Shown: positions 15,038 through 27,600 of the stretch, piece after piece
Layout: every line of letters starts with the position of its first letter
How positions within the stretch are numbered: position 1 is the first letter of the stretch
NCBI RefSeq assembly: GCF_964275005.1
Contig: NC_092698.1
Span: 23,491,809-23,555,808, forward strand
DNA from: Diadema setosum
Taxonomy: Eukaryota > Echinodermata > Echinoidea > Diadematoida > Diadematidae
Reading direction: 5' to 3'
DNA: 64,000 bases
Program-made: the position numbers and the translations under genes
The notes under the pieces: generated by a model
Told to the model about the DNA's origin: nothing
The model's database searches: none
The model's input: the letters and a program-made list of their open reading frames with translations, nothing else

Positions 15038-15680
15038 ATGAGGGGTTCGCTGTTGATGACAATTTTGTTATCCATGTGCTTGGTGTATTCCGGAGTGGAA
15101 AGTATTGACATATTGGTGGTGGGACTGCTGAGCTCTTTCTACGAGACCCAGTCCAAGCCCGCCGTCGAGCTTGCCTTGCTGAAGATAGAAGAAGATGTCC
15201 GAGCGGGTCTACTTGGCAATTTCACCATCATCTTTCAAAAACACGAGTCCTACGCCTGCTGGGGCGTGTACCCGAGAATGAGCTCAGCATGGGCTGCGGA
15301 GGCGTACCGCACGAGGAAAGTGGCCGCCTTCTTCGGACCTTCTTGCTCGGGGGCTATGGAAGCGGTGGCCGAGCTCTGTGCAGCCTGGAACATCCCCGTT
15401 CTCAGTGGACATTCTCCAGCCTTTGAACTGGGCGAAAAGTACCGCTTTACAACCCTCACGAGGACCTCGCTCTTGGCAGAGCAGTGCGCCCATGCCGCTA
15501 GAGAGATCATGATGTACTTTAAGTGGAAAACCTGCGCCTGGCTTTCTCAATCTGTGTACGGCTATTATGGCGCCATTACCCAAGGCATCGACGCCTCAGA
15601 CTACAGCTTTGATCTCTTCCTCACGGCAGATTACGAACAAGTTGAAATGGCTCTGGAGGCTGCTATGGTAGAAGCAAGGA
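15038..15680 (+). CDS. Receptor guanylyl cyclase alternative first exon 1a
   Basis: The ATG at 15038 is chosen because a hydrophobic signal peptide follows at once ([19 protein letters not shown]). The 214 codons plus one base make the first subdomain of an ANF-receptor ligand-binding fold. Hallmarks are [38 protein letters not shown] and a GNFT glycosylation sequon. The donor is GGA|GTAAGT at 15681 (strong, phase 1). No exon-2 equivalent lies between here and exon 1b, so if used it must splice over exon 1b to 25650 (intron 9969 bp). It is either an alternative first exon or the stump of a lost tandem gene; the intact frame and donor favour the first. Confidence 0.85.
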
Positions 15681-24600: not shown

Positions 24601-27600
24601 TATGAAATAGATACCGTGTTACCAGGCACAATGTTTACTTCATTGCAATGTATTTTTTGTGTCTGCGCGACTTAATGCTGTCGTATCTCATCGACGTTTA
24701 TACACGCATAAGTTACCGCTCTTTCAGGTTTATCACATCATTAATTGTCGCATTGCCGCTAGGGCACTCCTCGTCGATTGCCTTTTCCTCATTTTTTCTT
24801 TGCTGCTGTCTTTAATTTGTTGCGTTTATAAGCCTTTGTCTCCTATATTCGGTTAAACTCTGAACTTTGATTTCGTTGTGATTGTGTATTCATGTCGAAG
24901 GTGAATTGTGCCAAGTGGATTTTGTTAGAAGTGATTGTATTTGTTTTGTACCTCACGTTTTGTTGTTGTTTGTTGCTGTTGTTGTTGTCGTTTTTAGAAA
25001 TTACTCCCATCCATACCGATATACCTACCTGATACAGGCCAGATAGGCAGAAAATGATGCCATCTATAACATGCCGATCAAGAGCATATTACATCAAAAT
25101 ATTTACATTACAAATTGTAATTTCAAATGCCGTGGAAACTTCTCACTTACTATTCACTCATAGTTAAAAGTTCCCACATAGCTATAAGAACATGTTATCA
25201 CTTGTTTACCCTTTTTCCTTGATTTGTTTGATATCAAATGCTGCAATATTGCAAATTGTTAGGCCGAGAACAACCCAATCAGTGCCAATCGCCACACGGT
25301 ACTCTGGCCATTCCTTCGAAACCATGTATTAGTTCGCCCGGTGTTCTGTGGAGACGATCTTGACCTATGTAGATTTTGTACCAGTTGGAAGTTGAAGGGC
25401 CTGCTAGATAAGAAATACAACAAATTTGGTATTAAGGTTGAGTATTGGGATTTTCGGTAACGGCCCTTGGTGCTGTAACATACAAATGTTTAGAATTATA
25501 CGAGTTTTATTTTTCAACTGAGATATGTTTAAATATTATATTTCTTCAGAACGTTTTACGGTTTCATCTAGCACATACAGAGAATAAGACCTATTCTGTG
25601 ACCTTTTTTTTTTTAAAGTTTCACTCTGCTTTCATCTTTTTCTCTGCAGTTATTTTCATGGCAGTTGACGGGGACACTCAGCGAGATATAATGTTGCACG
25701 CATTCGATTTGGGCCTCTTGAATGGAGACTACGCTTTCATCAACATCATTCCATTCAGAGACGAGCAGGTCTTCGGCGATGACTCTTGGGAAAGGGTAAG
25801 TGACAGAAACCTCTGTCACCGTGGCTTCATATATCAAAAAAGCACCTTTGTTTTGCACAAAGCAACTCCAACTTGCGTGCGTGCAGATGGATGTAAGTTT
25901 CTTTTTAATATTAGAGACAACGCCCTTCTTCGCATTCCCGCATTTTCCCCTCCCGCAATGTATGGTGGAAGAAGGTGGTATGATGGAGAACAATATTTTG
26001 AGTGCACAATAATGTTTTTGCAGATAATTTCCCGGCAATGAGTGACCGTAGACTTATAGAGATGAACGGCAAAAATAGAACGGTATACCGGGAAATTCTT
26101 TACAGGGGTAAAGTGTTAGTTTAATGCTCATTTTATCACACATCTTATTACAAAATCATCCCTTTAATATTTGAAATACAAGTGAAACTTCAAGACAGTG
26201 CTTCTGTCACTTGCTTGTTTGTTTGTGTAGGTATGTCTGCACGAACCGTCGAGACAAGTGGACACATTAACGCATTAACTGTTGATTCGTACTCTTTTTT
26301 TTTTCTATTAGATTCAATGACCCGTTATAGACCTATGTGGGCGTATCCACCGCACGCCTTCGCGTATGTTGGCATAATGTACTCTCTTTGTGTATGATTG
26401 TACGAGTGAACAAGTGTAGCTAATGATCTACTCATTATACTTTATGTCCTTAACCTCGTATAGGGAGATGAACGGGATGCAGATGCCAAACGAGCGTACG
26501 AAGCCTTGATGACGATACGCGTTTTCGAGCCAACTTCGGAGGTGTATCGTCAGTTTGAGCGCGAGGTCGCGGCGATACAAAGGCGGGACTTCAACATATC
26601 AGGCCAAGATATGGGCTCTGTAAGGACATCTCGCATCTCACGACATTCTGGTCGCAGATGTTGTTTACATTATAAAGCACATTGTTTTACGTTATTATGT
26701 AGTGTCGCACTGTCCCATATTTGACACACTTATGTGACAATATGAAAACGGATTTTTTTTTTTCGTGCTAAGTTAACGCTGAAGCAAGTACGATGCTTAC
26801 TAAACATGCTAAAGGTCACATACGAAGGATACACGAGGGTTTGAATTTTTATCTTGAAGTTTACCCGAAGTACATGTGAAGGAAACACAATGGCTACCAT
26901 GGCTACACGATGATTTTGCCACACCGCTCACGAAGTTGCTGGAGACTTACACACTCCACGATCATAATGTAAGATGGCTTAAGATGCCCTCGTGAATGCC
27001 GATGTTTATACGATCAGAGCCGAATTTGAACATCCCCTTTATCGTTTGTTCATCTTTGCTCGATTTTGGGACAATGTGACGTCTTTATTAATGATGAGTA
27101 TGTAACATAGTCAAATCGTCATCATAGCCTCTGTGACTGGGGTTCACATCGACCCCCACAATGATTTATTCGTGATGTATGTTTTCATCTACACGTACAT
27201 GTGTATATGTATATTATGTCAAACTGGCAATGCTGGGTTGATAGTGATAGCAAGGTCCAATGGGCAGTGAAGAACAGTGCTAACATGCACTTCAATGAAA
27301 TTTGAGGAAAATCAGACAATCGGTTCAAAAATTATTGATTCTAAAAGCATATTGATTAAATCCATGCATCGCCATGGCCTGGGGTGATCAAAGGCTTCGG
27401 CAGTACAAAATATCACATAAACGGGGGGTAACGGTACAGAGAAATTGCAAACACGATTCCACAAAATCTCAACCTGCTGCTGACATAAGGCCCACACGTC
27501 AAGGATAATGTTTTCTCCCATGTCAATTTTGAAGGCGATAAATCATAAGTTTTTTTGGCATCATGCTTAAAAGATGAAAATATTAGTGGAATTCTTTCTC

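Follow-up and report, generated by a model that had tools for sequence, protein, structure and literature searches.

Introduction

In the vertebrate UGT1 locus, tandem large first exons, each encoding a signal peptide and an N-terminal recognition domain, share one set of constant exons; the variable exons are old, and distinct promoters, which are predicted in the present case, are reported for them (PMC1885805). GCNT2 and the clustered protocadherins are named beside UGT1 as similar variable-first-exon systems. These genes encode enzymes or adhesion proteins rather than a receptor cyclase, and mammalian UGT1 has about a dozen variable exons compared with the two described here.

Among receptor guanylyl cyclases, the nearest precedent that we found is C. 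elegans gcy-28. A separate promoter is described for each of its c and d forms, whose start primers differ and whose 3′ primer is shared (PMC9249223), and the expression of gcy-28.d is specific to AIA (PMC3842693). The likeness is that of a receptor guanylyl cyclase with two promoters, two starts and one 3′ end, and it concerns the starts and promoters rather than the extent of the ectodomain that differs. The initial annotation of this DNA had held that no receptor guanylyl cyclase with such an arrangement was described, which, given the two promoters and two start sites of gcy-28, was too strong. Swapped ligand-binding halves in a receptor guanylyl cyclase are not described in the accessible text of the open-licence PMC literature searched, most subscription papers lying outside it.

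Vertebrate NPR-A and NPR-B (GC-A and GC-B) have the same domain order as the receptor analysed here. Neither of them is known to have an alternative first exon that encodes a second ligand-binding half.

Results

Gene model and constant exons

On its + strand, the window, i.e., the whole stretch of 64,000 bases that was analysed (39% G+C), contains a receptor guanylyl cyclase gene that is complete in 22 exons. Exons 2–22 and their splice sites were placed one by one with the Diadema antillarum orthologue P0007 as a guide, to which they are 96.5% identical over 827 aligned columns. This degree of identity points to a diadematoid sea urchin that is a near relative of D. antillarum but probably a different species. 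The features are as follows.

15038..15680, + strand: exon 1a, which carries a start codon and encodes a hydrophobic N-terminus and the N-terminal half of the ectodomain; 214 codons plus 1 base, phase 1
20578..20595, + strand: acceptor-like site upstream of the 1b start; the first base after the AG is 20596; 99th percentile of AG sites
20662..21322, + strand: exon 1b, predicted alternative first coding exon; 220 codons plus 1 base, phase 1
25650..25795, + strand: exon 2, the first constant exon, which accepts either exon 1 in phase 1
26464..35420, + strand: constant exons 3–6, remaining ectodomain, placed with P0007 as guide (26464-26619, 28847-28982, 34399-34493, 35273-35420)
37033..37117, + strand: constant exon 7, membrane segment, a hydrophobic peak of 19 residues
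37686..45468, + strand: constant exons 8–15, chiefly the kinase-homology domain, PF07714 match on the assembled protein (exons 8–11: 37686-37797, 38889-38954, 39621-39698, 40229-40333; exons 12–15: 41453-41524, 41840-42008, 44549-44698, 45300-45468)
46391..54933, + strand: constant exons 16–22, linker and cyclase domain with the terminal stop, PF00211 match on the assembled protein (exons 16–19: 46391-46540, 47702-47825, 50187-50255, 51610-51784; exons 20–22: 52923-53021, 53585-53676, 54841-54933)

With either first exon, the frame runs open to the stop ending at 54933, giving an assembled protein of 1043 residues with exon 1a or 1049 with exon 1b and zero internal stops either way. The assembled 1a protein matched Pfam families PF01094 (4.5e-44), PF07714 (8.4e-40) and PF00211 (3.5e-72), the assembled 1b ectodomain matched PF01094 (1.2e-38), and hydrophobicity marks one strong membrane segment. 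This set of an ANF_receptor ectodomain, a membrane segment, a kinase-homology domain and a cyclase is that of a receptor guanylyl cyclase of the natriuretic-peptide-receptor type. When the assembled protein was searched against the 64-kb window with tblastn, exons 2–22 were found in one copy each, with matches elsewhere at E ≥ 5, which bears out the earlier statement that the window holds no second set. Within the window there is thus a single downstream constant-exon set, as in UGT1-type genes.

The two first exons

Both exons are present where the initial annotation placed them, each beginning with an ATG. A hydrophobic N-terminus is found in both, and the signal peptide that the initial annotation read there is putative. 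It had also credited each exon with the whole N-terminal subdomain of the ligand-binding fold; the encoded part is instead the N-terminal half of the ectodomain, aligning to residues 1–208 of the NPR-A ectodomain, and we take this half of the NPR-A-type fold to contribute to both lobes.

Exons 1a and 1b lie 5 kb apart, and their products are 32% identical across 202 residues. Each exon alone matches the Pfam ANF_receptor family (1a, with two read-through residues, at 2.8e-18; 1b at 5.6e-11), and the three full-length urchin fronts compared share with both of them a cysteine pair and an N-glycosylation site. A six-frame scan of the window with a front-half profile built from ten sequences, 1a and 1b themselves among them, scored 260 bits for 1a, 259 bits for 1b and 5 bits for the runner-up; no third first exon was found by this profile in the 64 kb. 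The two are tandem paralogous first exons of equal phase, each with its own start codon and N-terminal domain, which is again the UGT1-type pattern.

A family profile made from the two window exons plus 12 proteins (A1) aligns, over positions 23–1032, to human NPR1 9bcl. The predicted 1a model was compared by VIA-align only. For the predicted 1b model, the rmsd to NPR-A was as high as 6.8, and families that share this fold scored within ~1 Z unit of it; in Foldseek, NPR-A was also first in rank. The comparison consequently establishes a type I periplasmic-binding fold, and NPR-A by rank only. In a docking study, as distinct from a crystal contact list, the human NPR-A residues named lie at 59–192, within the exon 1 part, and some of those named for NPR-B (337, 338, 419) and NPR-C (347, 362) lie outside it (PMC9699598, in the part of the paper available).

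Could both exons serve the same gene? The reading frames and homologies make it very likely that a single receptor guanylyl cyclase gene, in which two or more variable first coding exons precede one constant set, makes two receptors. Either 1a or 1b would be spliced in phase 1 to exon 2, and the two receptors would have different N-terminal ectodomain halves on an identical remaining ectodomain, membrane segment, kinase-homology domain and cyclase. The N-terminal half, which is the peptide-contact part in NPR-A, would supply the reading of the ligand, and the cGMP output would be common to both front halves. We strongly expect both exons to be transcribed in this animal, and it is rather probable that the two receptors have different ligands.

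Splice junctions and upstream sequence

Ranked with a simple matrix among all GT sites in the window, the phase-1 donors of 1a and 1b, which the initial annotation had called usable, stand at the 97th and 93rd percentiles; the 20 donors of exons 2–21 range from the 68th to the 100th percentile with the same matrix. The acceptor at 25650 outranks 99% of 3434 AG sites. It had been described as the only matching acceptor, which holds by homology and frame but not by signal: the loose threshold applied also admits seven further acceptor sites between 15681 and 25649. The codon spanning the junction would encode Ile with 1a and Val with 1b, and in other urchins joins of exon 1 to the constant part are seen in predicted gene models.

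A promoter of its own for each first exon would be the most likely switch, and the cell type would then decide which front half is made. Separate promoters are likely here because they are described for UGT1 (PMC1885805) and for gcy-28 (PMC9249223). The acceptor-like site at 20596 is a possible 3′ splice site of a 5′ non-coding exon, and a site of the same kind lies ahead of the 1a start, at 15016 (90th percentile with the simple matrix). No motif common to the upstream regions of 1a and 1b was found beyond chance; the best local score, 25, was equalled in 35% of 300 random pairs. The site before 1b leaves room for a leader exon common to both. In an alternative that differs from the explanation proposed above in the switch alone, splicing from a common 5′ non-coding exon located upstream, instead of a pair of promoters, would select the first exon. 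The acceptor-like sites before both exons and the lack of a common upstream motif are in its favour; on the other hand, the separate promoters of the UGT1 variable exons and of gcy-28.c/d and the 5 kb between the exons argue against it, all of them indirectly. Overall, we consider a choice by splicing unlikely.

Front halves and bodies in other sea urchins

Searches with the gene drafts led to sea urchin proteins, with five matches for the 1a draft and six for the 1b draft, the sixth being a weak match to Trichoplax. The protein database shows representatives of 90% clusters, and further isoforms may therefore be hidden; the other urchin proteins are predicted gene models with one front per protein model. 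The best match of the 1a draft was S. purpuratus P0003 (369 bits, compared with 297 for L. variegatus P0004), whereas the 1b draft scored 418 bits with P0004 and 252 with P0003.

The main front-half tree has 10 rows, seven of seventeen having been left out as partial or long-branched. In it, 1a and S. purpuratus P0003 form a pair with 98/97 support, and 1b and L. variegatus P0004 form another with 99/96. A 15-row tree gives identical pairs, at 93/95 for the 1a pair, just below the starred level, and 100/98 for the 1b pair. In the 10-row tree, a grouping of 1a with 1b is rejected, at a cost of 37 log-likelihood units (p-AU 0.0007), and holding the P0003 and P0004 fronts together cost 47 (p-AU 1.4e-5). 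The bodies group differently from the fronts: in the body tree, P0004, a truncated model, is sister to two S. purpuratus models with a support of 100 (SH-aLRT). Between S. purpuratus and L. variegatus, the front halves (P0003/P0004) are 29% identical, compared with 95% for the remaining ectodomain. To their partner fronts, 1a is 42% and 1b 50% identical, compared with 81% for the remaining ectodomain. The comparison of 1a and 1b reaches other urchin lineages rather than within Diadema, as the P0007 model lacks exon 1.

S. purpuratus itself has two models, P0003 and P0006 ("isoform X2"), in which 824 of 826 body residues are equal behind different fronts (32% identity over 124 residues). One of the two differences, Val versus Ile, falls at the junction codon, which is the outcome expected from a phase-1 first-exon switch. 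The P0006 model starts part-way through the front half and lacks a signal peptide; identity of its front is 40% with the front of P0004 (113 residues) and 33% with 1b (116 residues), and it is probably a third type. Grouping it with P0003 or with P0004 in the 10-row tree was rejected, with p-AU values of 0.012 and 0.028, respectively.

These results support the earlier reading of one gene with two outer halves and a common kinase-homology and cyclase body: between them, protein models of two other urchins show the two front types, one each, on bodies that are orthologous, and two S. purpuratus models pair a single body with two fronts. The simplest account would be that both first exons existed before the split of Diadematoida and Echinacea, a placement taken from taxonomy, with one of the two represented in the model of each species. 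This split dates to ~200 million years ago. The orthologous bodies with different fronts, together with the common body of P0003 and P0006, indicate that the variable-first-exon arrangement probably predates the split of these urchin lineages.

The current models of other species, with one front per protein, are also what would be seen if only one first exon were used and the other were a relic of an old tandem duplication. Such a relic is highly doubtful, as 1a and 1b are both open, keep the donor, the phase, the cysteine pair and the N-glycosylation site, and are each 42–51% identical to another urchin's front half; identity of this degree, kept over such a split, is hardly expected of an unused exon.

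Since the front-half profile finds only 1a and 1b and exons 2–22 occur once, the locus is not a tandem gene pair unless the assembly is wrong. That a second complete tandem gene lost its body from the assembly through collapse of near-identical copies is very improbable: gene conversion could keep two bodies so similar that they would be read as a single gene, and urchins do have further paralogues (P0005, P0009), but no trace of exons 2–22 lies between 15681 and 20661, only one residue apart from that at the junction separates the S. purpuratus bodies, and P0006 carries the name of an isoform.

The fronts of these paralogues, P0005 from L. pictus and P0009 from D. antillarum, are 26–31% identical to 1a and 28–30% to 1b; their remaining ectodomain is 58–72% identical, the front being far more diverged. 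A gcy-28-like mollusc protein and nematode proteins were also among the homologues found. P0007, P0014 (hemichordate Glandiceps talaboti, "isoform X3") and P0022 (nematode Ancylostoma), 3 of the 21 homologues fetched, start no more than ~10 residues from the exon 1/exon 2 boundary, as if the model had missed or could not choose a first exon.

Other features of the window

Pfam searches of nine other ORFs gave one match above the cut-off, one ORF with sub-cut-off matches and seven with none. The first is an ORF at 3239-3871 on the + strand with a methyltransferase match (PF13847, 2.4e-25), probably the final portion of a neighbouring gene that lies upstream. Repeat copies at 168-base spacing, rich in GCGAGCGAGC, occupy 4464-8334 in two separated groups (families D4 and D5). 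Within intron 4 (28983-34398), a run of sizeable ORFs at 29621-32778 lies on the + strand, in the receptor's orientation; these ORFs (203, 116, 241, 166 and 80 residues) had no Pfam match at E 0.01, and our impression is of a broken mobile element.

Discussion

The architecture predicted for this locus is that of a variable-first-exon cluster on a receptor guanylyl cyclase. In urchins, a broader and tentative possibility is a birth-and-death cluster with at least three front-half types as interchangeable first exons, in which the switch may be ancient and shared with gcy-28. The P0014 and P0022 models begin at the switch point, which suggests that the first-exon switch may be ancient in the receptor family. 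On the other hand, one phylogeny gives the natriuretic clade without a C. elegans orthologue (PMC1435932), which speaks against a shared ancestry with gcy-28.

Should both exons be in use, a single receptor gene would report two signals as the same cGMP output, and the start point of transcription or splicing would decide between them. Receptor guanylyl cyclases of this kind work as dimers, and cells expressing two first exons would consequently make mixed receptors. As the variable exon corresponds to the segment that contacts the peptide in NPR-A and diverges far faster than the remaining ectodomain, its exchange would let receptors keep pace with changing ligands in a natural manner. The same body behind two fronts would furthermore amount to a clean set of natural chimeras with which the ligands of invertebrate receptor guanylyl cyclases could be sought.
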